Positions 45,087-61,553 of a stretch of DNA of 64,000 nt are shown here, piece by piece (positions within the stretch are counted from its first letter, which is position 1; each line of letters begins with the position of its first letter). Source of the DNA: Paraburkholderia sp. Tr-20389 (GTDB lineage: Bacteria > Pseudomonadota > Gammaproteobacteria > Burkholderiales > Burkholderiaceae); NCBI RefSeq assembly GCF_017104565.1, contig NZ_JAAGPD010000001.1:310001-374000 (forward strand), given 5' to 3'. The notes below the pieces were generated by a model that worked only from the letters and a program-made list of their open reading frames with translations, did no database searches and was not told the origin of the DNA. The position numbers and the translations under genes are program-made.

Positions 45087-45965
45087 TTGGGCACTCTGGA
45101 CACATTTGACGAACGTGCCTACGATCCACAGCACGTTCAGTTCTCTTATGCGGGGCAAGTCACCACGCCGTTCAGGCGCTTCGTGATCGGAACCGTCGAG
45201 CGTTTGACTGCCCGATCGAAGCTCGAACAGCTGTACGGGCAAAATCGTATGCATCCGGTCGCAGGCGAGAGTTTCTGGTCCGCCGCCGTTCGTTTGCTCG
45301 AACTGGATATCCGGTTCGATGCCGCCGCGCTCGCGAACGCACCTGCGCAAGGTCCACTTGTGGTGGTCGCCAACCACCCGTATGGCGTGCTGGATGGCGT
45401 CACACTTTGCTGGCTCGTTGAGCGTTTGCGCTCCGATTTCCGGTTGTTGGCGAGTTCGGTGCTCACACAGGCGCCTGAGTTGCAGCCCTGGCTGCTTCCG
45501 GTCGACCTTTCGACTCGCGAGTCTGCACGCGACATGAACGTCGCCACACGGCGCAAGGCGCTCGATCACGTGCGCGAAGGCGGAGCGCTAATTGTCTTTC
45601 CCGCCGGGCTGATCTCCGTCTCGCCCGATCGCGCCGGACGGCGGCGCGCGATCGATCCCCCGTGGGGTACCTTTGCCGCCCAGATTGCGCGCCGTACGGA
45701 CGCTACGGTATTGCCTGTCTATTTCCATGGACAGAATAGCCGGCTCTTTCAGATCGCCAGTCACATCGACAGAACGCTCAAACTCGCACTCATTTTTCGT
45801 GAGGTGGGCGCGCGCATCGGTTCGTCCGTCACTGCAAGCATCGGTGCACCTGTGCCTTTCGAGCACCTTGCCAATGGTCGGGGCGATCGCGCACTGACCG
45901 ACGACTTGCGTGAGCGCACTTACTCGCTGCGCGAAGACGGTGCAAAAAAAAGCGCGTGCACCTGA
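45087..45965 (+). CDS. Lysophospholipid acyltransferase family protein (PlsC/hemolysin-like)
   Basis: The 292-residue protein has the acyltransferase block NHPYGVLDG near residue 92 (H..D catalytic pair) and VFPAGLISVSPD near residue 172, the two key motifs of the PlsC-type fold. It should transfer an acyl chain to a glycerolipid or other hydroxyl/amine acceptor at the inner membrane. The start is a TTG at 45087 because no ATG lies before the conserved N-terminal segment; it is the least certain point of the call. It converges with the P450 gene 41 bp away and belongs by position to the lipid locus that follows. Confidence 0.82.
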   Translation: MGTLDTFDERAYDPQHVQFSYAGQVTTPFRRFVIGTVERLTARSKLEQLYGQNRMHPVAGESFWSAAVRLLELDIRFDAAALANAPAQGPLVVVANHPYGVLDGVTLCWLVERLRSDFRLLASSVLTQAPELQPWLLPVDLSTRESARDMNVATRRKALDHVREGGALIVFPAGLISVSPDRAGRRRAIDPPWGTFAAQIARRTDATVLPVYFHGQNSRLFQIASHIDRTLKLALIFREVGARIGSSVTASIGAPVPFEHLANGRGDRALTDDLRERTYSLREDGAKKSACT

Positions 45966-46006
45966 TGGCGAGTGCGAGAGAACTGGAACGAACGTAGGTT
46001 TTGCCC

Positions 46007-47401
46007 CTACGGATGGCCTGCCTCGCGTTGGCTGACGCGCATCATCATGCCGTACTGCGGACGGATGGCCACGCGGACCTGGGGCACGACGCGATGACCT
46101 GGAACCAGATCGAAGCGAAACCGGCCGAGCAGGCAGCGCAGGACCATCAGCATCTCGGTCATCGCAAAGCTCATGCCGATGCATACGCGCGCGCCCGCGC
46201 CAAACGGAATATACGCATGGCGTTCGATCCTTTCGCGCGCGGCGCCCAGGAATCGCTCGGGGTCGAAGGCATGTGGGTCGCTCCAGAGCGTCTGATGCCG
46301 ATGCAGCACATACGGTGCCACGGTGACAATCGTGCCTGCCGTAATCGCAACGCCAGACAACACGTCGTCGTTGCGCGCGACCCGGCTCATCATGGGAATG
46401 GGCGGATACAGGCGCAGGGTCTCCTCGATCACTGCACGCGTCACGGGCAGATCGGTGAACTCCGGGCCCTCGTGAGCGTGTGCGTCGATTTCGGTCTCCA
46501 CGCGCCTGCGCCAGGCGGGTGATCGTGCGAGCAGATAGAGTATCCATGTCAGCGCATTGGCACTCGTTTCGTGGCCAGCGCCGATGAACGTGACGATATT
46601 GTCGTGCAGTTCGCGCTCGCTCAGCGCTTGCCCCTCCGTGTCGCGTGCCGTTAGCAGTAGTGTGATCAGATCCTGGGGCGCGGGTGTGGCATGCTCGAGC
46701 AGCGCACGACGCTGCCTGATCATCTCGGTGACGACGCACGCCGCATGCTGCAGGGATTTGCGTCCCGTGAGGCGATTGAAGCGTGGCAGCCAGTCCGGCA
46801 AGCCGACAAGGTCGAAGTAGTCGAGCCGACCGAACGTTTCGAGGTAATGTGCGATGGCATGCTGGAACGCCGAGGGCTCGCATGCGAGTCCCTGGCCGAA
46901 CAGTGTGTGTTCGAGAATTTCGAGCGTGAGGCGGCCCATCTCCTTCGCGACGTCGAGCGTGTGACCGCTAATGTTGCGAGCGACATGATCGATGCGTTCC
47001 GCGCATTGCTGCGCCGCCGCGGCCTGTGGGACTGCGAACGCCTTGACCCGCTGCGGCGTAAAGAGCGGAGCTATCATCTGGCGCTGTCTGCGCCACGCCG
47101 TGCCGTTCGACGTAACAATGCCAACACCTAGTGCCGGGCGCAGCAGACGCAGCTGCAACTCGTTTTTCTCGTAGTTGCGCGCGTTGTCAACGAAGATACG
47201 GCGGACCGCGCCAGGGTCATTGACTAACGCACGTCGATCGACGATGGTCTTGCGCAACTGCATAGGCAGGCGGAAATCGTCTTCGCACCAGATCTCCAGA
47301 GGGTTGCGACGAAGCGTCAGCAGCAGCGCCAGTGGGCCGAGCGGAGATCTGTGCGGCGTGGGTGCGGGAGGGGAGAGACGAGTGGGCGAGGACAGGTTCA
47401 T
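46007..47401 (-). CDS. Cytochrome P450
   Basis: This 464-residue P450 has the I-helix oxygen-binding motif IGAGHETSANALTW near residue 273, the K-helix ETLR motif (VIEETLRLYPPIPM), and the haem-binding loop YIPFGAGARVCIGMSFA with the Cys thiolate. The N-terminal region lacks a TM helix, so the enzyme is soluble. It resembles bacterial CYP families that hydroxylate fatty acids or terpenoids. It lies 18 bp after the sterol-desaturase-like hydroxylase on the same strand, so the two form a leftward operon. Electron partners are not in the window. Confidence 0.94.
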   Translation of the reverse strand: MNLSSPTRLSPPAPTPHRSPLGPLALLLTLRRNPLEIWCEDDFRLPMQLRKTIVDRRALVNDPGAVRRIFVDNARNYEKNELQLRLLRPALGVGIVTSNGTAWRRQRQMIAPLFTPQRVKAFAVPQAAAAQQCAERIDHVARNISGHTLDVAKEMGRLTLEILEHTLFGQGLACEPSAFQHAIAHYLETFGRLDYFDLVGLPDWLPRFNRLTGRKSLQHAACVVTEMIRQRRALLEHATPAPQDLITLLLTARDTEGQALSERELHDNIVTFIGAGHETSANALTWILYLLARSPAWRRRVETEIDAHAHEGPEFTDLPVTRAVIEETLRLYPPIPMMSRVARNDDVLSGVAITAGTIVTVAPYVLHRHQTLWSDPHAFDPERFLGAARERIERHAYIPFGAGARVCIGMSFAMTEMLMVLRCLLGRFRFDLVPGHRVVPQVRVAIRPQYGMMMRVSQREAGHP

Positions 47402-47419
47402 CTACGAAGGCGAAAGCAT

Positions 47420-48544
47420 TCAGCGCTGAGGCAGTCGGGAGGGTGATGCCACGCTGCGCGCGAACTGGATTATGCCGAAGACACCATGAATGGCGAACAG
47501 CACAAGCACCGCGGCGGGCACCGCATCACTCACGGTGCGATCGCCGTGCAGCACCACGGGTACTGCGAACGCCAGCGAGCACCAGGTGGGCAGCGCCCAG
47601 CGCTTGCCGTCGCAATGGGCGCCGAGCGCGATCGTTCCGGCCAGCGTACAGCCCATCAGCATCCAGCGCGGGTCGGGGTGGGCGCCGTGCTGCGTGTTGA
47701 GCCAGCAAATGAGCAGGCCGTAAAGGAGGAGGGCACCGGTGGTCACGAAGGCTGCGCTCGCTCGTGCTGACGGGCAACGCTCAACGTCGGGCCACCTCAC
47801 GCCCACGAGTCGCAGCAGCGGTTCGTGAGTCGCGCGCAGCGGATTGCGGCTGTTCTCAATGCCATCGACCCCGTAACGGGCATGGACGTGACCGTCGTCG
47901 GGCGGAGTGAAGGTGCGGAAGAACTTGTCCCACAGAAGAAAAGTCCCGCCGAAGTTGCGGTTGAAAAACTGCGGCTCGGCGCGATGATGCACGCGGTGAT
48001 ATCGCGGTGTTACCAGAAAGCGGTCCAGTACGCCAGGCGACCGCACCAGGCCACTATGGTTGAAAAACTGGACAGCATAGTGGAAAGATGAAACGGCGAC
48101 GTAGATATCGAGCGGCAACCCCAGAACGGCGAGCACGCCGATGAACGGGAGGTCGGTGAGCGACGCATACCAGGAATTGCGGTTGCACAGCGAGAGATTG
48201 AAGTGCTCGCCCTGATGATGAACGATATGCACGGCCCAGAGCAGACCGAATCTGTGATGCGTGCGATGCCGCCAATAGAAGCAGAGATCCCATGCGAACA
48301 GCGCGAATATCCACTGTGCCATGCGCGGCAGACGGTCGACCCAGTGCAGGTTGAGATGCGCGAAGACGGCGGCGTAGACCGCGATTTCGACACCGCGGAA
48401 CGCCCACATGAGGATATGGCCGGAATTGAGGTTAAAGACGAGTTCAGGCCAGACCGTGCGTTCGCGGCGCACCATTCTCAGAAGGAGCGCTTCCGCGAGG
48501 ATCAGGCCGCCGCCCACGGCGCAGGCTATGGCGGATGGAGTCAT
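47420..48544 (-). CDS. Sterol desaturase/fatty acid hydroxylase superfamily protein (paralogue 1)
   Basis: The 374-residue membrane protein has three His clusters typical of the diiron hydroxylase family: YWRHRTHHRFG, VHIVHHQGEHFN and YHRVHHRAEP. About six TM helices surround them. The long C-terminal hydrophobic tail (about 110 residues) is extra compared with short family members. ATG 48544 is chosen; a TTG at 48553 would add three residues. A second gene with the same architecture lies at 55111-56247 in the opposite-strand operon, with nearly the same motifs (HRLHH, VHHEGEH, HRVHH). The substrate is probably an acyl chain or a lipid made by this locus. Confidence 0.9.
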   Translation of the reverse strand: MTPSAIACAVGGGLILAEALLLRMVRRERTVWPELVFNLNSGHILMWAFRGVEIAVYAAVFAHLNLHWVDRLPRMAQWIFALFAWDLCFYWRHRTHHRFGLLWAVHIVHHQGEHFNLSLCNRNSWYASLTDLPFIGVLAVLGLPLDIYVAVSSFHYAVQFFNHSGLVRSPGVLDRFLVTPRYHRVHHRAEPQFFNRNFGGTFLLWDKFFRTFTPPDDGHVHARYGVDGIENSRNPLRATHEPLLRLVGVRWPDVERCPSARASAAFVTTGALLLYGLLICWLNTQHGAHPDPRWMLMGCTLAGTIALGAHCDGKRWALPTWCSLAFAVPVVLHGDRTVSDAVPAAVLVLFAIHGVFGIIQFARSVASPSRLPQR

Positions 48545-49280
48545 TCTGGACAACTCTTCAGTGGTTGGAAACGTTCTGGCTTGACGAAATGCCGCAGTGA
48601 TGGCGCTTGACGGGCATGGTGCGATGTATGTTTACGAGGCGTCGGGGCCTGCATTAGTGGACCGCGATCATATGCAACCAGGCTTTGGAAACGGCAGGAC
48701 TTCATGATTGCCGCGCTGGAATCGCCCCCCACGACTTTGTTGCAGAAATCTGCTGCTGCGTCTGAAGTCCGGCCTCGATGGCGTAGTCCAACACTTTAGC
48801 GTAGTCCGCTCTGTTTTCGGAATATCCTTACGTATAACTAACCAGTACATGAATAAACTTCGATCGGCTGCTTGCAGAATTGTTGCAAACGACGAAGGTT
48901 GAGTTGGGCATCAGCCCCGCGGCGCCGTCAGCTGTTCGAACCGTGAAGAGTCTCCGTTGCTCCAGGCAACGGATAGCCGGAGGACCGGCTCCGGCGCCCT
49001 GGGCGACCGGAATAGTTGTTCTGTGCCGGTCGCTCTTGCCCCCGCAGTGGCGCGCCACTTCAGGCGCTTGTGTGAATGATTGTCAATCTTTGACCGGTTC
49101 GATTGTGTGGGCGGACAACATATGTTGTTATGACATCCCTCGATATTGTCCGGGTTTTACCCCATACGCTCGCCACTAATGACTTCGCGCAGACACCGCT
49201 CCGTCGCCTTGCGTTGCTCCCGGCGGCCGGGCTGTGGTGGTGAGCCGCCGCATTCGCGAAGTATCGCGAACCCTTGATCC
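48545..49280. promoter_or_regulatory. Divergent promoter region of the lipid locus
   Basis: I see no supportable gene in these 736 bp between the leftward hydroxylase-P450 pair and the rightward eight-gene operon. It contains a perfect 14 bp palindrome ACAACATATGTTGT at 49115-49128, about 150 bp before the desaturase ATG. The rest has no clear structure. The desaturase ATG has no strong ribosome site. Confidence 0.45.
49115..49128. promoter_or_regulatory. Perfect 14 bp palindrome, candidate operator
   Basis: ACAACAT is followed directly by its reverse complement ATGTTGT. The size and position suit a dimeric repressor such as TetR or MarR type, but no regulator gene lies in the locus, so the binding protein would be encoded elsewhere. 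Confidence 0.4.
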
Positions 49281-50390
49281 ATGAAGAATGATTTCTGCGA
49301 AATCCGTCCCGCGTTTCTGACGAGCCGGCATTCCCCGTTCGCCAGGGAACTTCGCGCGGCTGCCGAGGCGTACCTCAAAGACCACGAAGATCATCGTTAC
49401 GGCAATGCTGCCACTGCGTTCAAAGTTGTGACGCTTGCCATCCTGACCTGTGCGCTTTTCGCCGCGTCTCTGAATTCGACCGGCGAGATCTCCTTCATGT
49501 GCCTGTACATAGCGTTTCTCGCTTCGGCCGTACTGCTGTCAGCAAATGTCTCCCACGATGCCTCTCACGGCGCGCTATTTCGGTCTCGCTTGCTCAACGC
49601 GATTGCGATGCGCGCCGTCACCGTGCCGCTTGGCGTCGAGCCGGTCTACTGGCAAGTGCGCCATGTGCGCTATCACCATCCCAATGCGAACATCGAGCAT
49701 CACGACCTCGACACCGCCGCGAACCGGTTTCTGCGTCAGACGCCGTTCCAGCCCTGGTTCCCACAGTTCCGGTTCCAGCAGTACTACTGGCCAGTCGTCG
49801 CGGGGTTGTCGATGCCGTATATCGCGTGGATCTATGACTGGTCAGATCGGCTCGGGCTGACGCCGCTCGCGCGAGATCGACTGCTGCCGGGACCGGCGGG
49901 CTGGTTGTGCTTCGTGGGCTCGAAGCTGGCACATCTGGGTTTATGTCTGGTCGTCCCGCTCGCCGTGGTCGGCCATGGCACGGGATACGGACCGGTCATC
50001 GCCGCGTATGCATTGGGTCAGATGGTCGCGTCCTGTCTGCTGCTCACGCTGATCCTGGGCACGCATTGGGCCGATACCGAATTCTATGACGTGAGCGACG
50101 GAGCACCGTTACCGCATACGCGGGAAGAACACGCGTTTCTGACCTGTTGCGACTGGGTTCCGCGTCCGCGCCTGCTAAACGGCTTGCTGGGCGGCCTGAA
50201 TCATCATCTGACGCATCACCTCTTCCCGTACTACAACCACCGGCACTATCCCGCACTTGCGTCGATCGTAGAGCAACTCGCCCTACGCCACGGCCTGCCT
50301 TATCGCTGCCTGCACTACCGGGAACTGTTGCGCGCGCAACGTCGTTTTCTCGAATCAATGGGCAAGCGGCCCAATTCTTCCGATGTCTGA
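49281..50390 (+). CDS. Membrane fatty acid desaturase
   Basis: The 369-residue protein has the three His boxes of acyl desaturases: HDASH near residue 93, HVRYHHPN near 127 and NHHLTHHLFP near 313, with four hydrophobic spans between. It would introduce a double bond in an acyl-lipid or acyl-thioester using a diiron centre. It is the first gene of the rightward operon; the KAS III start lies inside its last 8 nt. Confidence 0.9.
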   Translation: MKNDFCEIRPAFLTSRHSPFARELRAAAEAYLKDHEDHRYGNAATAFKVVTLAILTCALFAASLNSTGEISFMCLYIAFLASAVLLSANVSHDASHGALFRSRLLNAIAMRAVTVPLGVEPVYWQVRHVRYHHPNANIEHHDLDTAANRFLRQTPFQPWFPQFRFQQYYWPVVAGLSMPYIAWIYDWSDRLGLTPLARDRLLPGPAGWLCFVGSKLAHLGLCLVVPLAVVGHGTGYGPVIAAYALGQMVASCLLLTLILGTHWADTEFYDVSDGAPLPHTREEHAFLTCCDWVPRPRLLNGLLGGLNHHLTHHLFPYYNHRHYPALASIVEQLALRHGLPYRCLHYRELLRAQRRFLESMGKRPNSSDV

Positions 50391-51384
50391 TACAACGAAA
50401 CCTGCCATCCTGCCCGTCAGGATCCTGTCTTCTGGCAAGGCCCTGCCGGGCCGCAAGGTTACCTCCCACGAACTCGATGTCCGGCTGTCGAAACCTTCGG
50501 GCTGGGTTCAGAAGCGCTCTGGCATTGCGTATCGCTTTCATGCGCACGACTGTGAGAGCCAGTCCGACATCGCCGCGCAGGCGCTGCATGACGCGTTCGC
50601 AAATGGCGGCATCGATCCCGGTTCGATCGATTTGCTGATTTCCGCCTCGGGCGTGATGGAACAGTCGCTGCCGTCGACAGCGTCGCTGATTCTCCATCAT
50701 GCGGGGTTGCGCCCTGGTACGCCGGGCTTCGACGTCAACGCAAGCTGTTTCAGCTTTCCCGTCGCGCTCCATGTCGCGGCAAGCCTGCTCAACACATCAG
50801 CGTATCGACGCATTGCAATCGTGGCTTCGGATCTTGCGTCGCGCGGCATCGACTGGGACAGTGCCGAAACTTCGCTGATCTTCGGCGACGGGGCGGCGGC
50901 TATCATCGTCGAACGCGGCGATGGTACATGCGGCATCGAAGGTTACAGGCTCCGAACCTATCCCGAAGGCAAGGCCTACTGCGAAATCCGCGCAGGCACG
51001 TTGCGCAATCCGCGCCTTGGGGCGTGCCCGTCGGACTTTCTGTTCCAGATGGACGGCAAACGTGTTTTCAGGCTCGCGGCGAGCGAAATGGACGGCCTGC
51101 TCACTGACGTGCTCGATGACGCACACCTGTCGCTCGATCATATCGACACTGTCGTTCCACACCAGGCAAGTCACCTGGGCATGCGTCACGTTGCCGAGCG
51201 GCTGCGCGTGCCAACAGGGAAGATCGTCGATATCTACAAGACGCACGGCAACCAGGTCGCGGCATCCATCCCTACTGCGTTGCACGAGGCTTTCGTCACG
51301 GGACGCGCGCAGCCCGGCCGACGTGTGATGTTAATCGGCACGGCGGCGGGCGTGAGCGTGGGCGGATTGATTCTCAAGTTATGA
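50383..51384 (+). CDS. Ketoacyl-ACP synthase III-like condensing enzyme
   Basis: This 333-residue thiolase-fold enzyme has the catalytic triad pattern of KAS III: Cys122 in DVNASCFSFP, His in TVVPHQASHLGM and Asn in KTHGNQVAASIPTAL. It condenses an acyl thioester with malonyl-ACP or with another acyl unit. Typical FabH has AAACAGF around the Cys; the NASCFSF variant suggests a specialised substrate. No fabD, fabG or acpP lies beside it, which argues against housekeeping FabH. It overlaps the desaturase upstream and the reductase downstream. Confidence 0.88.
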   Translation: MSDTTKPAILPVRILSSGKALPGRKVTSHELDVRLSKPSGWVQKRSGIAYRFHAHDCESQSDIAAQALHDAFANGGIDPGSIDLLISASGVMEQSLPSTASLILHHAGLRPGTPGFDVNASCFSFPVALHVAASLLNTSAYRRIAIVASDLASRGIDWDSAETSLIFGDGAAAIIVERGDGTCGIEGYRLRTYPEGKAYCEIRAGTLRNPRLGACPSDFLFQMDGKRVFRLAASEMDGLLTDVLDDAHLSLDHIDTVVPHQASHLGMRHVAERLRVPTGKIVDIYKTHGNQVAASIPTALHEAFVTGRAQPGRRVMLIGTAAGVSVGGLILKL

Positions 51385-52394
51385 AGACTCTCGTGACGGG
51401 TGCCACCAGCGGACTCGGCAGAAACGCTGCAGCTTTCCTCGCCGCGGAAGGGCAGGCGGTACGTGGTACGGGACGAGACTTGCGCGCGGGCGATTCGCTG
51501 CGCGCGCACGGCATCGAATTTATTCCTGCTGATCTCACGACTGCGGACGCACGCGAACTCGACCGCCTGTTCGACGGCATCGACACCGTCTGGCATTGCG
51601 CCGCGCTCTCGTCTCCCTGGGGGCGGTATCACGACTTCCATGCGGCGAATGTGATTGCAACGAGGCGGCTCGCAGAGGCGGCTGCACGGCACGGCGTGCG
51701 CCGGTTCGTCCACATCTCCACGCCGTCCCTCTATTTCGACTACCGGCATCGCACGGACATTCCTGAAACGTTTCGCCCTGTGCGCTACGTTAACCACTAC
51801 GCAAGCACCAAGGCTCAGGCTGAAGAGTCGATCCGCGCCATCGCCGCGCATCATCCTGCGACGATCTTTGTCGTGCTGCGGCCACGCGGGATATTCGGCC
51901 CGCACGATCGCGTGCTGTTGCCGCGCATCCTTCGGATCGTGCGCGAGCGGCATGGCCGGCTACCTTTACCGCGAGGGGGCGTTGCACGATTCGATCTGAC
52001 GTATGTGGAAAACGTCGTACACGCGATGCAACTGGCAACGACCCGTGAAAGTCTTCCCAGTGGCGAGGCCTTCAACATCACAAACGGTGAACCTGTCGTC
52101 CTGCGGGACCTGCTCGAAGCGATGTTCGCAGCCGTGAAGGTTTCCTGCCGCATCGTCGGAGTTCCATATGCCGTCCTCGATGCCGCTGCGCGCGTGATGG
52201 AGGCCGGCGCTACCGTCAGCGGCAGGGAACCTGCACTCACACGCTACAGCATCGGCGCACTGCATTACGACATGACACTGGATATCACACAGGCCCACCG
52301 CGTGCTCGGCTATCGGCCGATCGTATCGCTCGCGGACGGCATCGATTCGACTGTTCAATGGATCCAGTCACGTGGCCACGATTACGGTCTTTGA
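51381..52394 (+). CDS. NAD(P)-dependent epimerase/3-beta-HSD-type reductase
   Basis: The 337-residue extended SDR has the cofactor motif TGATSGLGRN at the N terminus and the catalytic YASTK near residue 138. Its best structural analogue in function is the 2-alkyl-3-oxoalkanoate reductase OleD of olefin synthesis, which follows a condensing enzyme as here; 3-beta-hydroxysteroid dehydrogenase-like proteins share the fold. It starts within the KAS III stop (ATGA) and overlaps the next gene by 23 nt. Likely reaction: reduction of the keto group formed by the KAS III enzyme. The OleD comparison is inference. Confidence 0.82.
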   Translation: MKTLVTGATSGLGRNAAAFLAAEGQAVRGTGRDLRAGDSLRAHGIEFIPADLTTADARELDRLFDGIDTVWHCAALSSPWGRYHDFHAANVIATRRLAEAAARHGVRRFVHISTPSLYFDYRHRTDIPETFRPVRYVNHYASTKAQAEESIRAIAAHHPATIFVVLRPRGIFGPHDRVLLPRILRIVRERHGRLPLPRGGVARFDLTYVENVVHAMQLATTRESLPSGEAFNITNGEPVVLRDLLEAMFAAVKVSCRIVGVPYAVLDAAARVMEAGATVSGREPALTRYSIGALHYDMTLDITQAHRVLGYRPIVSLADGIDSTVQWIQSRGHDYGL

Positions 52395-53178
52395 GGCTGG
52401 GTACTGCACGCACGCAGCGTGCATGGCGTTGCGCGGCGCCGGCATTAGAGTCTGCCGCTTTCCCGCGCGCGCGTACCTGATCGAAACGGCGCACGGCCGC
52501 TGGCTGTGGGATACGGGTTACGCGTCGCATTTCATCGACAGCACACGCAGCGGCATATTCGCATGGTACCGGCGCGTGACGCCCGTGCATTTCAATGAGA
52601 GTGAAGCGGTCGTGCAGCAGTTGCGCGACCGTGGGATCCGCGCAACCGATCTCAACGCCGTGATCCTGTCGCACTTCCACGGTGATCACATCGCGGGGCT
52701 GCGGGATCTGCGGGAAACGCCAACCTGGTTATCGGGAACGGGCTGGGCAGTCACGCGCTCGCTGCGCGGGATCGGGGCGCTACGCCAGGGATTCGTGCCT
52801 GGCCTGATTCCACCCGATTTCGAATCGTCGGTGACCGCAGTCGAGAGCTTCGATCGGGTCGAACTGCCTGCCGAACTCGCACCGTTCACACACGCATACG
52901 CAGCGCCCGGCGCGGACGGCGAACTGTTGATCGTCAATCTGCCCGGACATGCCGCCGGACATCTGGGTGCGTTCGTGGCAACAGGGCAGGGCTGGGTCCT
53001 GCTGGCCTCCGACGCCGCCTGGTCGCCCACGAGCTATCGCGAACTGGTCGGCCCGTCGCGGATTGCGCACGCCGTCATGGACGCCCCGTCCCGATACTAC
53101 GAGACGCTAGGCAAGCTGAACAGGCTTTATCAGGGGGGACGTGTGCGCATTCACCTCACTCATGAGGGCTCCCTGTGA
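52372..53178 (+). CDS. MBL-fold metallo-hydrolase
   Basis: This 268-residue metallo-beta-lactamase-fold protein has SHFHGDHIAGL (H-x-H-x-D-H) near residue 104, LPGHAAGHLG near 184 and an Asp in LLASDAAW near 206. These ligands fit a dinuclear zinc or iron site, and the arrangement resembles lactonases of the AiiA type more than lactamases. It could hydrolyse an ester, thioester or lactone intermediate. GTG 52372 is chosen and overlaps the reductase gene by 23 nt; the downstream adenylating enzyme overlaps its stop (GTGA). Confidence 0.85.
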   Translation: MATITVFEAGYCTHAACMALRGAGIRVCRFPARAYLIETAHGRWLWDTGYASHFIDSTRSGIFAWYRRVTPVHFNESEAVVQQLRDRGIRATDLNAVILSHFHGDHIAGLRDLRETPTWLSGTGWAVTRSLRGIGALRQGFVPGLIPPDFESSVTAVESFDRVELPAELAPFTHAYAAPGADGELLIVNLPGHAAGHLGAFVATGQGWVLLASDAAWSPTSYRELVGPSRIAHAVMDAPSRYYETLGKLNRLYQGGRVRIHLTHEGSL

Positions 53179-54464
53179 CGCGTCTTATGAACGTGCTCTG
53201 GTCGTACTGGCAGGCAAAGCGGCTCCGGTTCGACAGCCGTGGGGCACTCGAACATCATCAGCGGCGCAGGCTGCGCGAGTTTGCTACGAGGACCCTCACG
53301 CGCAGTCCGTATTTCGCGCCCTATGTGAACCAGCCGCTTCACACCTGGCCGACGATGAACAAGGCAGTGATGATGGCGCACTTCGACCGGATCAACACCG
53401 CGCAACTCAAGCTCGCCGAAGTCCTCGCATGTGCATTGGATGCCGAACGATCCCGCGATTTCTCGCAGACAGTGAAGGGCTACAGCGTCGGACTCTCATC
53501 GGGCACATCCGGCTCGCGCGGCGTGTTCGTGGTGAGCCCTGCAGAGCAGGCCGTCTGGGCCGGGATCATGCTTGCGAGGCTGCTCCCGGGTCGACTCTTT
53601 GCTGGGGAACGCGTGGCGTTGTTCCTGCGCGCGAACAACAACCTTTACGCGGCCGTGCGTAGTCCGTGGCTTTCATTCGAATATTTCGATCTGATGACGC
53701 CGCTGACGGAGCAATTCGGGCGCCTCGAACGATATGCGCCGACCACCGTGGTCGGTCCTGCGCAGGCCTTGCGGGCGCTTGCCGGGGCGACCCTGGAAAA
53801 TCGACTTGCGATCCGGCCACGCAAGGTCATTTCAGGCGCGGAAGTCCTGGAGCCGTTCGATCGCGAGTTCCTTGCCCAGTCACTCGCACCTGTTGGCGAG
53901 GTCTATCAGGCGACGGAAGGCTTTCTTGCTTCGACGTGCACGCACGGAACGCTGCATCTGAACGAGGCGCACATTCATGTCGAACCGCAGTGGCTCGATG
54001 AACATCGCTTTGTGCCCCTGATCACCGATTTCACGCGTACGACACAGCCTGTCGTGCGATATCGGCTCGACGATATTCTCGTGAAACGCGTCGCCCCTTG
54101 CCCGTGTGGCAGCCACGAAATGGCGATCGAGCGCATCGAAGGTCGCTGCGACGATCTGCTCCAGCTACCTGGGCGTGACGGCGGAACGATTGAGATTTTT
54201 GCCGACGCACTCTCGCGTGCAATCGCGCAGGTGCTGCCGATCACGGCCGACTACCGCATCGTGCAGACGGGTAAAACGCAGCTCGCACTTTACGTCGAGG
54301 GCGCAAGCGATGCACTGGATGCCGGCCGGGCGCATATCGAGCGCTTCCTCGCGCATCAGGGCGTGAAGACATCGTCACTCGCGTGGACGCTGGGGCACGC
54401 ATTGCCTGATGTCGATCTCGGCGCCAAACGGCGCCGCATCATCCGGCGCGAGGCACCCCAATGA
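53175..54464 (+). CDS. F390 synthetase-related adenylate-forming enzyme (PaaK-like)
   Basis: The 429-residue member of the ANL adenylating superfamily has the P-loop SSGTSGSRGVF near residue 112, an aromatic-TEG motif VYQATEGF near 244, RYRLDDIL near 295 and a CPCGSHE zinc-like pair. These match phenylacetate-CoA ligase and coenzyme F390 synthetase-like proteins; methanogen F390 is not expected here. It would activate a carboxylate as an acyl-AMP and pass it to CoA, an amine or a hydroxyl. Its place in this operon recalls OleC of the olefin pathway, but the protein is shorter and from the PaaK branch. Confidence 0.85.
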   Translation: MTRLMNVLWSYWQAKRLRFDSRGALEHHQRRRLREFATRTLTRSPYFAPYVNQPLHTWPTMNKAVMMAHFDRINTAQLKLAEVLACALDAERSRDFSQTVKGYSVGLSSGTSGSRGVFVVSPAEQAVWAGIMLARLLPGRLFAGERVALFLRANNNLYAAVRSPWLSFEYFDLMTPLTEQFGRLERYAPTTVVGPAQALRALAGATLENRLAIRPRKVISGAEVLEPFDREFLAQSLAPVGEVYQATEGFLASTCTHGTLHLNEAHIHVEPQWLDEHRFVPLITDFTRTTQPVVRYRLDDILVKRVAPCPCGSHEMAIERIEGRCDDLLQLPGRDGGTIEIFADALSRAIAQVLPITADYRIVQTGKTQLALYVEGASDALDAGRAHIERFLAHQGVKTSSLAWTLGHALPDVDLGAKRRRIIRREAPQ

Positions 54465-55114
54465 AGCCCGATTACCCGCGGGCCCGCCTGCACACGCGAA
54501 TCGGCCTGATGCTGGCAGGCTGGGGAACCGTCGGGCTATGCTACTCGGTCGGTCGCCTGACACCGCACGTGGCACATGTGCTGAATGAAGGCATCCTCGA
54601 CACGCTCGTGCCGTTCGACGCATCGGCAGTCTGGCTGTATCTCTCGTTCTTCCTGCTTGTTCCCGCCGCCTATCTGTTCGCTGCGCCGGATCGGCTCACA
54701 CCGCTCACACGATCGATGCAGCTTTCGGCCGCTGTTGCGGGCGCCGTCTTCCTCGCGTGGCCGACGACGATTGTGTATCCAGCGATTCCGCCCGCAACGA
54801 TAGGCGGCACCGTGCTGACTGCGCTCGCCGGCGCGGATTCTCCACGCAACTGCCTGCCGTCGCTGCATGGCGCACTCACGTTGCTATGCGTCGTTGCGCT
54901 ATGGGAGCGAAAGCGGCCCTGGCGCAACGCCGCCGTGCTCGTGTGGGGACTCGCGGTCATGTGGTCGGTGGTCGCAGCACGGCGACATTTGTCCATCGAT
55001 CTTGGTGCGGGCGTGATGCTCGGCGCGGTTTGCTCATGGTTCGCCACGAGGCAGCGCGCCGTCGAGGTGCCGACCGAAATCGAATTCAACTCAAGTCCGG
55101 AGAATCATCCGTGA
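54461..55114 (+). CDS. PAP2-superfamily membrane phosphatase/transferase
   Basis: This 217-residue protein has about six TM helices. It carries NCLPSLHGALT near residue 127 and RRHLSIDLGAG near 173, the second and third motifs of the PAP2 phosphatase family; the classical first KxxxxxxRP motif is not obvious. The PSLH form is common in the branch that includes inositol phosphorylceramide synthases and lipid phosphotransferases. It may dephosphorylate or transfer a lipid head group in the locus. Overlaps on both sides: ATGA with the adenylating enzyme and GTGA with the second hydroxylase. Confidence 0.8.
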   Translation: MKPDYPRARLHTRIGLMLAGWGTVGLCYSVGRLTPHVAHVLNEGILDTLVPFDASAVWLYLSFFLLVPAAYLFAAPDRLTPLTRSMQLSAAVAGAVFLAWPTTIVYPAIPPATIGGTVLTALAGADSPRNCLPSLHGALTLLCVVALWERKRPWRNAAVLVWGLAVMWSVVAARRHLSIDLGAGVMLGAVCSWFATRQRAVEVPTEIEFNSSPENHP

Positions 55115-56247
55115 ACGCAATGGCATTACCGCTGCTCGGCATGCTCGCCTGCATGCTCGCAGAACTGCTTGTCGTCCAGAGGTGGCGTGGCCGTCGGGCT
55201 CCGTGGCGCGACCTCGTGCTGAACCTCGATTCAGGTCACATACTCATGTGGCTTTTTCGCGGCGTCGAAATTTCCGTCTATGCGTGGGTGGTTGAGCATG
55301 CCAATCTTCACTGGGCCGACCATTGGTCGCCACTCTTGCTCTGGGGGAGTGCGCTGCTTGCGTGGGATCTCGGGTTTTACTGGATGCATCGGCTGCATCA
55401 CGTGCTCCCCGCGTTGTGGAGCGTACATGTCGTCCATCACGAAGGCGAGCACTTCAATCTTTCTCTGGGAGTCCGCAACGCCTGGCTATCGTCGCTGACA
55501 ACACTCCCATTCACGTCAATTCCGCTCGCACTCGTCGGTGTGCCAGTGCCGGTATTCGTCGCGGTGTCGACCTTGCATTACACGGTACAGTTCTACAATC
55601 ACAATAGCATCGTTGGTCGATCCGGTTGGCTCGAACGCTTCTTCGTCACGCCGTCGCATCACCGTGTGCATCACGGACAGAACCGCGAGTATCGCGATCG
55701 AAACTACGGCGGCACGTTTCTCATCTGGGACAAGCTGTTCGGCTCATTCCAGCGGGAGCTGCCGGATGTGCCGGTTCGTTACGGGGTAGCCCGACCGACA
55801 GCATCGACGAATCCGTTTTGGGCCAACATCGTTCCGCTGCTGCGCTACGCTGGTGCGCGTGTGCCGGGCTTCAGGCACGACGAGCGCCGCAAAACCAGGT
55901 CGGACATTACGATCGGCACCGGCGGAGCGCTCCTCTTCTGCGTCGCCGCCTATTACATTCATCGTGACGGGACGTGGCCCGCGTGGGGGCAACCCCTGTT
56001 CTTCATGCTGATCTTCGCCTTGACGCTTGCGCTAGGCGGAATGTCAGATGGACGGCCGTGGGGACTACCGTGCTGGCTTTTCCTTGGATGCACAGGGATC
56101 GTGATCTTGCCACTGCTATTTGGCCTCAATGATCCGATTGGCCTGGTCGCGCTTGCACTTTTGCCGCTTCATGGAGTGATGACCTCGCTGTTCGATCGTG
56201 CCGATTCGGTGGCCGCCTCGAGCAGTTCGGATGGCGCCGGTCCGTGA
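55111..56247 (+). CDS. Sterol desaturase/fatty acid hydroxylase superfamily protein (paralogue 2)
   Basis: The 378-residue membrane protein has the diiron hydroxylase His clusters YWMHRLHH, VHVVHHEGEHFN and SHHRVHHGQNR, and the same long C-terminal hydrophobic tail as the paralogue at 47420-48544. The match extends over most of the length, including NLDSGHILMWLFRGVEISVY against NLNSGHILMWAFRGVEIAVY. GTG 55111 overlaps the PAP2 stop; ATG 55120 is an alternative. The frame is open far upstream but that part lies inside the PAP2 gene. Two copies on opposite strands suggest two oxidations on related sites of the same product. Confidence 0.9.
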   Translation: MNAMALPLLGMLACMLAELLVVQRWRGRRAPWRDLVLNLDSGHILMWLFRGVEISVYAWVVEHANLHWADHWSPLLLWGSALLAWDLGFYWMHRLHHVLPALWSVHVVHHEGEHFNLSLGVRNAWLSSLTTLPFTSIPLALVGVPVPVFVAVSTLHYTVQFYNHNSIVGRSGWLERFFVTPSHHRVHHGQNREYRDRNYGGTFLIWDKLFGSFQRELPDVPVRYGVARPTASTNPFWANIVPLLRYAGARVPGFRHDERRKTRSDITIGTGGALLFCVAAYYIHRDGTWPAWGQPLFFMLIFALTLALGGMSDGRPWGLPCWLFLGCTGIVILPLLFGLNDPIGLVALALLPLHGVMTSLFDRADSVAASSSSDGAGP

Positions 56248-57107
56248 TGACGATGCTTCCGATGACCTCGCCACCTTCCACGCCTCTGCATCGCCGCGAC
56301 ATCGATTTCAATATGGGCGCGCCGATTCCCGCACACTGGCTTGCTGGCCATTGCCATCTCACGCGCTTCTATGACGCGATGTCCATCATGTTTCCAGAGG
56401 GCGAACGGGCGTTTATCGAAACCGTACGTCACTATCGCGACCGGATTGGTAGCGACGCCGACCTCGCGCACGCAGTGAAAGAGTTCATCGCTCAGGAAGC
56501 ACTGCACAGCCGCGAGCACGTACGATACAACCGTCGGATGCAGGAGCAGGGTGCGCCGGTGGAGCGACTTGAACGCATTGTCGCCTCGCAACAGGCGTTT
56601 GCACGCCGCTATCTGCCTCCAGTTGCGCGTCTCGCCATAACCGTGTGCCTCGAACATTTCACGGCCATGTTCGCAGACCAGATCCTGCGCGACCCGCGCT
56701 GCCTGGAAGGCGCCCATCCGGCAATGGCCGATATCTGGCACTGGCATGCCCTGGAAGAGACCGAACACAAGGCCGTTGCCTTCGACGTGTTCACCGCAGC
56801 GATACGTGCTCCGCTGCGCCGGTACGTGCTGCGTTGTGTGACGATGCCGTTCGTCAGCATCATCTTCTCGACGCTTCTGTGGCGTTTTACGTGCCACCTG
56901 GTTCGGCACGACGGGCGCGGCACCGACGTACGAGGCTGGCTGCATTTGCTGCGTGTTCAGTTCATGCGTCCGGGGCCGCTTATGCGGATGTTGCCATACT
57001 GGTTAGCATGGTTCCGGCCATGCTTTCATCCGTGGCAGCACGACAACCATGGGGTGATGGAGCGTTTCAGGCAGCGCTTTGACCGTGAGAGCAGTGGGGG
57101 CGGTTGA
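56244..57107 (+). CDS. Metal-dependent hydrolase family protein, ferritin-like (PF10118 type)
   Basis: This 287-residue helical protein has metal-ligand patterns spread over four helices: FPEGERAFIE near residue 46, FIAQEALHSREH near 77, TVCLEHFTAMF near 137 and HALEETEHKAVAFDV near 170. The E, ExxH, E, ExxH order is that of carboxylate-bridged diiron proteins, so an oxidase or oxygenase role is as likely as the 'hydrolase' of its family name. It is the last gene of the coupled operon and overlaps the second hydroxylase by 4 nt. Confidence 0.82.
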   Translation: MMTMLPMTSPPSTPLHRRDIDFNMGAPIPAHWLAGHCHLTRFYDAMSIMFPEGERAFIETVRHYRDRIGSDADLAHAVKEFIAQEALHSREHVRYNRRMQEQGAPVERLERIVASQQAFARRYLPPVARLAITVCLEHFTAMFADQILRDPRCLEGAHPAMADIWHWHALEETEHKAVAFDVFTAAIRAPLRRYVLRCVTMPFVSIIFSTLLWRFTCHLVRHDGRGTDVRGWLHLLRVQFMRPGPLMRMLPYWLAWFRPCFHPWQHDNHGVMERFRQRFDRESSGGG

Positions 57108-57749: not shown

Positions 57750-58262
57750 GGGGATGCGATTCGTTGTAGTGGTCAAACGCGATGGCCAGGTATTGCAGTG
57801 CGGTTCTGACGTCAGGCTTGGGCATTCCATGAAACGTAGTCTCGCGTTATCGTTTTGACGAAACTTTCGTCCATCCCATTGCTCTGCGGACTTCTTGCCG
57901 GGGTCGTGACGGGCTTCAAACCGATTGTCCGCGAGAACGTCAGCGGTTCCTCGGCAATGTAGAAGGAACCGTTATCGCTGAGCCACTCGATTTCGCTGTC
58001 GGCCTTAAGCGCGCCGTTGAAACGGTTCTCCACCGCCTGAAGCATCACGTCGCGTACCATGTCCCCGGTGTAACCCCCCGTCGTCGCCGCCCAGCTTATG
58101 GCTTCCCGGTCGCAGCAGTCGAGCGCAAAGACGACGCACAACGGCGCGCCATCATCGCAACGGAATTCGAAGCCGTCCAAACACCAGCGGGCATTGCTCC
58201 TGCCCACCGCGACCTTGCCGTCGTGTCGCCGCGAAGACGGCTCTACCCGTTTCCGCCATCGT
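57750..58262 (-). pseudogene. Broken IS3-family transposase (OrfB, DDE integrase core)
   Basis: Leftward frames read [43 protein letters not shown] and [14 protein letters not shown], which cover the D, D and E catalytic residues of an IS3-type OrfB. A frameshift near 57825 moves the continuation [20 protein letters not shown] into another frame, and the C terminus is lost after about 57750. The N-terminal half and OrfA are absent. It is inactive debris next to the repeat pair. Confidence 0.8.
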
Positions 58263-59385: not shown

Positions 59386-60426
59386 ATGAAAACGTTTCGC
59401 CAGCCACTTTTTTGGTCCATTGTCGGGGTCCCCAACCTCGTTTGCTTCATTTACTTTCTTCTGATCGCGTCTCCGATCTATGTCTCAACGGCTTCCCTCA
59501 TCGTATACAAGCCTGTTCAAGCCTCGGAAAGCCTCACGTCGATGCTTTCCGGTGCAGGCGGCGGTGGCTCGACTGAGGGTGCGTACATTGTTAAAGACTA
59601 TGTCGGTTCCTGGGATGAGTACCGAAACGTGACAAGGTCGCTAGACTTTCCCGGACACTATGGCCAGGGCGATATCGTCAGCCGCTTTGGTGGATTCTCG
59701 ACACTCTTTGGAAAAAGCGACGTTGCCCTGTGGCACTACTACCAGAATCGCGTGAGTGCCGCGATTGACCAGAACAGTGGGATCGTCTCCTTGTCGGTTG
59801 AGGGATATTCCCCCGCCCTTGCCGCAACGATTGCGGGAAAGGTTCTGAACGATGCGGTTCATCATATCGACGAAATGAACCTGCAACAGGAAACCGACTA
59901 CATCAAGAATGCGGTTGATCGGCGAACCTCGATCGAGGCCAGGTTGAAAAGCGACGAAGCTGCACTCGCCGCATACCGCACTTCGACGGGCATGCACGAC
60001 CCGTCCGAGTTGTACAACTCCAAGCTGGCGCTTCTGAACTCGCTGAACGAGCAAACGACGCGTATGTCTGCGCAGTACGACGCAATCTCCGCGGCAACAC
60101 CCAACAATCCCGTCGCCAAGAATTTGCTTTTTGCAAAGGGCGCTTTCCAGGCCGAGATCGCTAGCACGGAGAAAGATGGGAAGACGCTTTCTCGCCAGGC
60201 TGCGCGCTATGAAGAACTGACGGTGGCGCGCGACAGCGACATATCCCTATTGCACGACGTTGAAGCTGCTGTCCAGCAGGCACAACTGAACGCGATGAAG
60301 AACAAGTATTACCTGAATATCATCAGCGCTCCCTCCAGCCCGCACTCGCCCGAGCTACCGCGGCGTCTGGAATGGACCGCTGGTGTACTGCTTGCCACTC
60401 TCGTTCTGTGGGGACTTCTCCGATGA
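59386..60426 (+). CDS. Polysaccharide export inner-membrane protein (Wzz/KpsE family)
   Basis: The 346-residue protein has an N-terminal TM helix (FWSIVGVPNLVCFIYFLLIAS), a periplasmic region with a long coiled coil (about residues 160-300), and a C-terminal TM helix (TAGVLLATLVLWGLL). This is the KpsE/CtrB-like chain-length and export architecture without a kinase domain. ATG 59386 is chosen. It overlaps the outer-membrane exporter gene by 4 nt. It would span the periplasm with that exporter in capsule or exopolysaccharide secretion. Confidence 0.87.
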   Translation: MKTFRQPLFWSIVGVPNLVCFIYFLLIASPIYVSTASLIVYKPVQASESLTSMLSGAGGGGSTEGAYIVKDYVGSWDEYRNVTRSLDFPGHYGQGDIVSRFGGFSTLFGKSDVALWHYYQNRVSAAIDQNSGIVSLSVEGYSPALAATIAGKVLNDAVHHIDEMNLQQETDYIKNAVDRRTSIEARLKSDEAALAAYRTSTGMHDPSELYNSKLALLNSLNEQTTRMSAQYDAISAATPNNPVAKNLLFAKGAFQAEIASTEKDGKTLSRQAARYEELTVARDSDISLLHDVEAAVQQAQLNAMKNKYYLNIISAPSSPHSPELPRRLEWTAGVLLATLVLWGLLR

Positions 60427-61553
60427 AGCACTTTTCTCGAGCCACTCGCCTCGGGCTCGTAAGTACTGCCCTGGCGCTGTCCGCGTGCGGCACGCTACCG
60501 TCTTCGGGTCCCTCGGTATCCTCGGTTAAATCGAGCCCCGACGTCGACATCGTGAACGTCACCCCCGTCATTGCCCAACAACGAGCGGCGACGGAAGCGT
60601 TACGCCATCAAACTGCGCTTCAGCAGTCGCTGGCGTCCCTATCGGAGGAGGAACACCGTGCAGGGTTCACCTTTGCGCCTGGCGATGCGTTGCACCTTCA
60701 GGTATGGACGATTTCTCCCTGGTCTGGCTCGGATTCGCAGCAGGGCGCATCGAACGTCCCATCCCCGATTGATCTCGGCGATTACACGGTCTCGGAGAGT
60801 GGGACGATCGAACTTCCCTACCTCGGCTCGACATCGATTCGAGGCCTAACGCTTGATGCCGCGCAGACCACGATTGCGCGTCGGTATGCAGCCCTCGGCA
60901 TTCTGCAGAGTCCCTCGGTAAAAATCTCCGTCACCTCGTCGTCTCAGGGCAGCATCCTCGTCACGGGGGCCATCGGCGCACCCAAGATTCTCCCGTGGAC
61001 ACCGGCCGGGCACTCCCTCGCGTCTGCCTTGACCCAGTCCCTGGGAAATGGCTCCGACCTCATCGGATCAACGAATGGCCAAAGCGATAACAGCGTCGCG
61101 ACGCAGGTGACAGTCCTTCGGAAAGACGAATCCATAACATTGCCTCTTGATGAAGCCTTAGCTCAGCAGATTGCCTTGGCGCCAGGCGACCGGGTCCTGG
61201 TCAAACGGGCTCCGGTCGTGCGGGTAACGGTGGTTGGTGGGGGGGTTCACAAGAACAGCGAGCTTGACTTCGCGCACGTGCCCACGTTGGCTGAGGTATT
61301 GGCGTCGGCGTCCGGCCTGGATGCCAACGCCGCGGACGATCACGCAGTGTTTGTGCTCGAAGAAACCCCGCAGGATAAGCGTCCCGTTCTCTACAATTTC
61401 GCGTGGAACAAACTCGATGGACTTGTCGCGTCGCATCGTTTCCCGATCAAGGACGGGGACATGATATACGTGGCTGAAGCTCCGATCGTCCCTGTTGAGC
61501 GCGCGGTCAACATTCTGTTCCAGCTTGCGGTCCCCATCCAAGCCATCAAGTGA
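60423..61553 (+). CDS. Outer-membrane polysaccharide exporter (Wza/KpsD-like OPX lipoprotein)
   Basis: This 376-residue lipoprotein has a lipobox LALSACG. Its polysaccharide-export domain spans about residues 85-180 (FAPGDALHLQVW then DYTVSESGTIELPYLGSTSIRG), followed by SLBB-type repeats (SILVTGAIGAPK and RVTVVGGGVHKNSELDF). It forms the outer-membrane channel of a polysaccharide export machine. ATG 60423 overlaps the preceding gene, and the glucosyltransferase ATG follows its stop by 1 nt. Confidence 0.9.
   Translation: MKHFSRATRLGLVSTALALSACGTLPSSGPSVSSVKSSPDVDIVNVTPVIAQQRAATEALRHQTALQQSLASLSEEEHRAGFTFAPGDALHLQVWTISPWSGSDSQQGASNVPSPIDLGDYTVSESGTIELPYLGSTSIRGLTLDAAQTTIARRYAALGILQSPSVKISVTSSSQGSILVTGAIGAPKILPWTPAGHSLASALTQSLGNGSDLIGSTNGQSDNSVATQVTVLRKDESITLPLDEALAQQIALAPGDRVLVKRAPVVRVTVVGGGVHKNSELDFAHVPTLAEVLASASGLDANAADDHAVFVLEETPQDKRPVLYNFAWNKLDGLVASHRFPIKDGDMIYVAEAPIVPVERAVNILFQLAVPIQAIK

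Follow-up and report, generated by a model that had tools for sequence, protein, structure and literature searches.

At positions 49281 to 57107 of a 64,000-nucleotide stretch of Paraburkholderia sp. Tr-20389 (hereafter, the window; positions 310,001 to 374,000 of contig NZ_JAAGPD010000001.1, part of a 9.0-Mb genome in 129 contigs), eight genes follow one another on the + strand, each running into the next. We call them, in order, DES, KAS, SDR, MBL, AMP, PAP2, FAH and DIH (Table 1). An initial annotation, made from the letters alone, had described this run, and the description is borne out: all eight open reading frames are open and in frame, their coordinates are as claimed, and all seven junctions overlap—by 8 nt at DES/KAS, by 23 nt at SDR/MBL and by 4 nt at KAS/SDR, MBL/AMP, AMP/PAP2, PAP2/FAH and FAH/DIH—with the caveat that the PAP2/FAH overlap depends on a GTG start at 55111, an ATG at 55120 leaving instead a 5-nt gap.

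Table 1. Genes of the operon and of the neighbouring module, in positions of the window
Feature	Position	Strand	Description
DES	49281..50390	+	membrane fatty acid desaturase, PF00487, 8-His diiron motifs
KAS	50383..51384	+	cassette-type KAS III condensing enzyme, Cys122-His260-Asn290
SDR	51381..52394	+	extended short-chain reductase, OleD/3beta-HSD-like
MBL	52372..53178	+	metallo-beta-lactamase-fold hydrolase, lactonase-like, PF00753
AMP	53175..54464	+	adenylate-forming enzyme, TIGR02304 (F390 synthetase-related)
PAP2	54461..55114	+	PAP2-family membrane phosphatase or phosphotransferase
FAH	55111..56247	+	FA_hydroxylase/sterol desaturase family membrane diiron enzyme, PF04116; GTG start
DIH	56244..57107	+	PF10118 protein; putative diiron oxidase, predicted fold ferritin-like
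FAH2	47420..48553	-	second FA_hydroxylase, PF04116, divergent from the operon; likely an optional neighbour module
cytochrome P450	46007..47401	-	PF00067, 262 bits; linked to FAH2 in loci L106 and L141-L143
PlsC-like acyltransferase	45087..45965	+	PF19576/PF01553; linked in L106, L142 and L143; partial match in L141

How much should one make of genes that overlap? Single overlaps are ordinary, since 7 of 23 other same-strand neighbour pairs of coding sequences in a 49-kb stretch of Escherichia coli CFT073 overlap as well (RNA genes, one pseudogene and one 54-bp coding sequence excluded); an unbroken and conserved run of them is not. SDR and MBL overlap by exactly 23 nt in the window, in E. coli, Burkholderia stagnalis, an Azoarcus metagenome-assembled genome and Caballeronia glebae, and in four further genomes (G004, G007, G009 and G027), with starts in the relatives picked by script as those nearest to the start of the window protein; in four loci of other genomes of the same class, they overlap by 8 nt. 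Between the window and E. coli, the 23 nt are kept despite only 47% identity in SDR. From the run, we infer matched production of the eight proteins. Scans for consensus promoters and terminators gave nothing above shuffled sequences.

The real unit, which the eight-gene view of the initial annotation had missed, is smaller: a four-gene core, or cassette, KAS-SDR-MBL-AMP, that recurs with exchangeable partners. The Pfam and NCBIfam domains (FA_desaturase, KAS III, an epimerase/3beta-HSD-type reductase closest to the OleD model, MBL, TIGR02304, PAP2, FA_hydroxylase and PF10118) agree with the assignments made earlier, and as far as sequence can tell, the four-enzyme core is intact, its catalytic residues invariant. 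Trees and residue counts used 30 rows for KAS, 29 for SDR, 31 for MBL and 32 for AMP, window included; duplicate loci (L003, L004, L058 and L064) were omitted, and so were any proteins that had internal stops or did not exceed 75% of the length of the window protein. The Cys-His-Asn triad of KAS is invariant in 30 of 30 rows, as are Tyr140 and Lys144 of SDR in 29 of 29 and HxHxDH, H193, D214 and H264 of MBL in 31 of 31, as befits a hydrolase of that fold; D300 and K418 of AMP are present in all 32.

What kind of condensing enzyme is KAS? It scores 324.3 bits against NCBIfam PRK07204, under the cut-off of 402, and 202.4 bits against the FabH model TIGR00747, under the cut-off of 292.1, which places it outside the housekeeping FabH family. 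Its PDB matches of nearly full length are 4v2p (168 bits), 4ryb (163), CorB (159) and 1hn9 (122); 3row and 3s21, which we take to be OleA, reach about 47 bits over residues 53-144 only, and no OleA model is among its 13 NCBIfam hits, although whether the library holds such a model was not checked. The active site of the window protein reads NASC, the same as in CorB and 4v2p, and that of 4ryb reads QAVC, as in FabH. More generally, the residue before the cysteine is S or T in 30 of 30 cassette rows and V or A in six FabH-like paralogues (QAVC in five, QAAC in one). A stricter motif, N[AS][ST]C, describes the window protein, its E. coli counterpart and CorB, but only 17 of the 30 rows, and was dropped as a general mark of cassette KAS.

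SDR finds its best NCBIfam match in OleD at 175.8 bits, under the cut-off of 580 (resemblance without membership), and also resembles 3beta-hydroxysteroid dehydrogenase (3beta-HSD) and a sterol-4-carboxylate dehydrogenase. MBL has lactonases as its nearest solved relatives and falls below every cut-off for acyl-homoserine-lactone (AHL) lactonases (56.4 bits against 375 for AiiA, lower for the others); its Trp217, found in 30 of 31 rows, stands presumably in the place of the lactonases' catalytic Tyr. AMP is a member of TIGR02304, with 512.8 bits against a cut-off of 251.9, has no Pfam match at E 0.001, and belongs to the F390/PaaK side of the adenylate-forming enzymes.

Around the core, in the window, lie four tailoring genes. 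DES matches PF00487 at 85 bits, over the cut-off, and its H92, H96, H128, H132, H133, H309, H312 and H313 are invariant in 11 rows. PAP2 clears the cut-offs of PF14378/PF01569 barely, with S134, H136, R175, H176 and D180 invariant in 12 rows. FAH matches PF04116 at 99 bits, and its His boxes are invariant in 12 rows, one of them the FAH2-type protein of locus L106. DIH scores 276.1 bits against PF10118, whose gathering score is 33.2, and a structure model places it near ferritin-like diiron folds. In the PDB, DIH and PAP2 have no sequence match up to E 1, and FAH and DES have one weak, unrelated match each. The earlier proposal of three or more non-haem diiron oxidations is supported for three enzymes, by ligand motifs in DES, in FAH and, least surely, in DIH, which is a candidate for a ferritin-like diiron oxygenase of the CmlI/AurF kind (a four-helix diiron fold with E/ExxH ligands).

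The core has been seen in alpha-, beta- and gammaproteobacteria, in Bacillota and, rearranged, in Fusobacteriota. Its adenylating enzyme is rare and patchy in distribution: within the genus, 8 of 145 genomes have a protein above the TIGR02304 cut-off, as do 7 of 398 sampled across the phylum and 2 of 369 sampled across the class, each count including the window's own genome. A tblastn search of a plasmid collection with AMP returned 61 records, 47 with at least 80% query coverage; there was no match among phage records, and a scan of genome contigs gave 4 loci. Thirteen of the 61 plasmid neighbourhoods were examined, three of which, lacking gene annotation, were mapped by tblastn. Eight of them (E. 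coli, B. stagnalis, Paraburkholderia PREW-6R, Ketogulonicigenium, Pseudomonas FeN3W, Paracoccus, Rhizobium and Shinella), and most of the chromosomal neighbourhoods fetched, have KAS-SDR-MBL-AMP in an unbroken row whose genes overlap or nearly do so. In the Bacillota pair, Pontibacillus and Paenibacillus, KAS and SDR are separated by an ATP-grasp gene; in Fusobacterium, KAS comes after AMP; in Pseudomonas sp. Leaf58, the cassette genes are scattered; and on a Pseudomonas amygdali plasmid, AMP is the only one found. MBL accompanies AMP in all AMP-bearing loci compared except L062 and L078. Two Pseudomonas megaplasmids of about 0.9-1.0 Mb, L059 and L062, have the cassette genes scattered, or AMP alone, amid many hypothetical genes.

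The partners vary. In a neighbour-gene search of 35 loci (the window and the four duplicates left out), an ATP-grasp gene stands beside the core in 15, together with a GNAT gene, a Rieske gene or both in 12 of those; DUF3419 with GNAT occurs in two loci and a divergent sulfotransferase in two. No ATP-grasp, GNAT or Rieske gene lies within the fetched stretch of the 11 loci with an operon-type PAP2 and/or FAH, and the hydroxylase near the Rieske cluster of L106 is of the FAH2 kind, not the operon's. A Rieske gene at L074:13137-14106 and an SDR gene at L077:7994-8922 each match in two pieces, and therefore each may be frameshifted or misassembled.

The lipid-tailoring branch is the core with PAP2, FAH and DES. 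The initial annotation had proposed a search for the same eight-gene order elsewhere, and the full order does recur: besides the window, it is present in G009 (71-84% protein identity) and in C. glebae. In G004, G007 and G027, it recurs without KAS; E. coli and B. stagnalis have KAS-SDR-MBL-AMP-PAP2-FAH-DES, an order found with a second desaturase in three other genomes of the same class; and the Azoarcus contig stops in or just past PAP2. The rows of this branch, together with those of locus L082, cluster as a single group in each of the four core trees, with support of 100/99 for KAS (10 rows), 100/100 for SDR (13), 100/99 for MBL (13) and 100/100 for AMP (13), in trees whose deeper forks are weak and in which some rows sit on long branches. 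Between the window and G009, dN/dS (the ratio of nonsynonymous to synonymous rates) is 0.10-0.24 across the eight genes. Of the cassette and its lipid branch we are highly confident.

The branch also occurs in E. coli. Seven of the eight genes, at no less than 80% query coverage, occur in 671 of 5,426 complete genomes (AMP alone in 672), and 671 of 673 places are chromosomal. In the four chromosomes examined (CFT073, Nissle 1917, N96 and the ST131 strain 5506), the operon has narI on one side and, on the other, the tRNA-Tyr gene or genes that precede purU, and a record of strain KE48 filed as a plasmid shows the same arrangement. In Nissle 1917, it is found just behind narGHJI. This locus (C_RS07890-C_RS07920 in CFT073, ECOLIN_RS07415-RS07445 in Nissle) is like the window in its seven genes, core order and 23-nt SDR/MBL overlap, and unlike it in having the desaturase last, not first, and no PF10118 diiron gene. 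The AMP of N96 has 92% identity, and dN/dS between CFT073 and N96 is 0.09-0.17 for each of the seven genes (0 to 0.31 between CFT073 and 5506, with few changes). The genes appear to be functional and kept by purifying selection; in the papers searched, we found no function given for the narI-purU operon. In passing, the hemolysin E gene near umuDC is annotated as an incomplete pseudogene in both Nissle 1917 (L144) and CFT073 (L063).

In three Paraburkholderia genomes, the core is split. KAS is missing from the lipid operon of G004, G007 and G027; DES and SDR then overlap by 4 nt in two of them, and the third has an 11-nt gap between the two genes if the script's start is taken and a 4-nt overlap if an earlier one is used. 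Each has one cassette-type KAS at another place (42-44% identity), the remaining KAS hits being at 31-33% with the FabH motif. The unlinked KAS is followed by ATP-grasp, GNAT and Rieske genes that are 64-70% related (58% for one Rieske piece of G014) to those following the full core in G014, G520 and G531, with whose KAS it groups at 100/100. Within the 20 kb fetched around it, there is no match to SDR, MBL or AMP, and each of the three genomes holds one AMP over the cut-off and one MBL at E 1e-20. Across the genus, 6 of 145 genomes have the ATP-grasp gene at E 1e-40, and every one of them belongs to the eight that have AMP; the chance that three split genomes should fall within the five lipid-operon genomes is 2e-5, assuming independent draws, and they are close relatives. 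Because the lipid operons lack KAS and the unlinked KAS sits in a cluster without reductase, hydrolase or adenylating enzyme, the simplest reading is that two tailoring routes appear to share one core in trans.

How, then, might the eight proteins work together? We favour, with moderate confidence, the view that the operon represents one branch, for lipid tailoring, of a biosynthetic cassette for which we found no characterised match, in which the core would build and activate a dedicated acyl block and the membrane-bound and ferritin-like diiron enzymes would oxidise it; that this is a lipid or fatty-acid-derived biosynthetic operon, as the initial annotation had supposed, is supported. KAS would carry out a Claisen condensation on an acyl thioester taken from primary metabolism and might join two acyl chains, as CorB-type enzymes do; SDR would reduce the new beta-keto group to beta-hydroxy; MBL would hydrolyse the thioester (or a lactone) to the free acid; and AMP, with ATP, would turn that acid into an acyl adenylate or CoA ester. 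The pairing of MBL with an adenylating enzyme fits such a transfer from thioester through free acid to activated acid. DES, FAH and DIH would then oxidise the chain in the membrane, and PAP2 would remove or transfer a phosphate on a membrane lipid intermediate, giving, we predict, a fatty-acyl lipid, or a metabolite resembling one, that is oxidised and hydroxylated. Elsewhere, the same core would feed the ATP-grasp/GNAT/Rieske route.

Several points weigh against this view. The order of the chemical steps, read from families alone, is tentative. KAS may join chains or may instead extend by malonyl, because 4ryb and CorB score about the same. The thioesterase role of MBL is putative, its solved kin being lactonases, and none of the eight proteins has a product, substrate or activity known to us. 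L082 has the core and groups with the lipid branch without detectable PAP2, FAH or DES. Because of that locus and of the Leaf58, P. amygdali, Fusobacterium and G884 loci, in which the core is scattered, rearranged or reduced, the cassette is not always intact. Finally, the split may be a single event, since the three genomes that show it are close relatives.

The foremost alternative is that the operon converged on the olefin (Ole) pathway: KAS would make a 2-alkyl-3-keto acid, SDR would reduce it, AMP would close a beta-lactone in the manner of OleC, and MBL would open or trim it, leaving a beta-lactone or a branched 3-hydroxy acid. The curated match of SDR to OleD, the lactonase-like MBL and the repetition of the OleA-D-C logic (as set out in the available part of PMC7064751) all speak for it. 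The condensing enzyme, however, is like FabH and CorB rather than OleA, AMP belongs to TIGR02304 with no Pfam match, and a lactone-destroying enzyme in the same operon requires explanation; we consider this pathway unlikely, if worth keeping in mind. One might also imagine that the product is no membrane lipid but a diffusible signal or antibiotic, a small acyl molecule made by the core and tailored for export by the membrane enzymes, with MBL as the lactonase of self-resistance or turnover. The likeness of MBL to AHL lactonases, the patchiness within the genus and the 61 plasmid-collection records would suit that role. MBL nonetheless scores under all the lactonase cut-offs and nearly always travels with AMP, more like a pathway enzyme than a resistance gene, and among the eight genes there is no transporter or regulator; we find the idea rather unlikely.

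A salvage or degradation operon that modifies lipids and sterols of a host or the environment would account for the sterol desaturase family of FAH and the sterol-dehydrogenase likenesses of SDR, with the TIGR02304 enzyme acting perhaps as a CoA ligase. A condensing enzyme whose Cys-His-Asn triad is intact is by nature biosynthetic, though, no beta-oxidation enzyme is among the eight genes, and the core keeps company with ATP-grasp and GNAT genes elsewhere, all of which makes salvage improbable. Chance clustering of unrelated housekeeping lipid genes, for which one could cite how common overlaps are in CFT073, is contradicted already by an order and an exact overlap conserved across classes, by congruent tree groups and by purifying selection, and has next to no credibility left.

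If the lipid-tailoring reading is right, a common and genetically tractable E. coli carries a complete, selected biosynthetic operon for which no product was found, and the chemistry of that product is within reach of one deletion and mass spectrometry, the probiotic Nissle 1917 included. We also entertain a larger proposal, which we would place a little short of an even chance: that an undescribed core pathway of chain-joining ketosynthase, reductase, MBL thioesterase and TIGR02304 ligase would supply a new acyl block to at least two chemistries, membrane-lipid and ATP-grasp/GNAT/Rieske; that some cells would run both from a split core; and that part of E. coli would make an unnoticed oxidised lipid. 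A shared acyl block, if true, would add a modular lipid chemistry and explain TIGR02304, a family named only by its distant resemblance to F390 synthetase; the split-core genomes are a natural complementation experiment on which four enzymes cooperate.

The flanks of the operon hold other things. The acyltransferase, P450 and FAH2 genes form a three-gene module (45087-48553) with the same arrangement in G027, G002 and G526, the acyltransferase match being partial in G505; FAH2 orthologues (55-73%) occur in these four other genomes of the genus. In G027, FAH2 lies about 2 kb from the Rieske cluster; G505, G002 and G526 are not among the eight genomes with AMP. We had tried the module as part of the pathway and dropped it, and because FAH2 occurs without the core in three genomes of the genus, we treat it as an optional neighbour. 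Just downstream of the operon, at 57815-58207, an integrase core domain (rve), probably a transposase remnant, fits a mobile island. Farther off are a Tle3-type phospholipase effector of the type VI secretion system (25986-28085; PF24322, 346 bits) amid what appear to be type VI secretion genes; a large molybdopterin oxidoreductase (8107-11046), followed by reading frames that by eye resemble its iron-sulfur and membrane partners; and a polysaccharide export protein (60372-61553; Poly_export, SLBB), with which a capsule or exopolysaccharide region may begin.

How does all of this compare with what has been described? The markers of polyyne and resorcinol clusters are a fatty-acyl ligase with a carrier protein and several desaturases, or a DarB-type ketosynthase. 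The operon has one desaturase, no space inside it for a carrier protein gene and a KAS that scores 27.7 bits against a StlD/DarB cut-off of 450, so that both assignments were rejected (flanking reading frames under 100 aa were left unchecked); a ladderane reading was dropped as well, its marker genes lacking. The comparison with olefin, polyyne and resorcinol clusters that the initial annotation had called for places the operon in none of them, and no match to a characterised cluster with a known product was found. Nor did we find a description of the operon or cassette in open-licence PMC full text, among the matches listed; the phrases were limited and the genes of E. coli go by no common name, and this is weak evidence of absence. 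In the parts available of PMC2649909, PMC5467263, PMC9823363 and PMC5501837, F390 synthetase figures only in annotations or expression data. In Desulfotalea, according to the part available of the first of these (PMC2649909), an acyl-CoA-ligase-like gene annotated as F390 synthetase lies beside type II fatty acid synthesis (FASII) genes. The enzyme families of the operon are themselves known; for their arrangement, we found no product described.

The initial annotation had drawn a parallel with the Ole enzymes while placing the operon's enzymes on different branches. The parallel survives as logic—a condensing enzyme joined by an OleD-like reductase and an adenylating enzyme, with acyl substrates to be expected and MBL in place of OleB—and fails as kinship, since KAS is not OleA-like and AMP is not of the OleC type. 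Condensing enzyme, reductase and adenylating enzyme make up the OleA-D-C logic, and OleB, the beta-lactone decarboxylase, is absent in producers of beta-lactones (both from the available part of PMC7064751). Set against OleABCD and OleACD, the operon differs in having MBL and not OleB, a TIGR02304 adenylating enzyme, a non-OleA condensing enzyme and four membrane or diiron tailoring genes; no OleB is among the eight genes, the rest of the genome not having been searched for it. Judged by its families, the operon is not an Ole pathway.

Closer to KAS itself are CorB and 4v2p, which we take to be the chain-joining ketosynthases of alpha-pyrone antibiotics: they share its NASC active site and score high against it in the PDB search (159-168 bits), yet the operon has no polyketide synthase or carrier protein, and SDR, MBL and AMP have, to our knowledge, no counterpart in those pathways. 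The ornithine-lipid hydroxylase OlsE (NF052566) is the sole NCBIfam model matched by FAH and FAH2, which at 83.4 and 67 bits fall far under its cut-off of 475. Also close are the clusters of the core with ATP-grasp, GNAT and/or Rieske genes (L073-L075, L083, L084 and L087, for example), which have homologous KAS, SDR, MBL and AMP, mostly in the same order, and differ from the operon in that those enzymes replace PAP2, FAH and DES.

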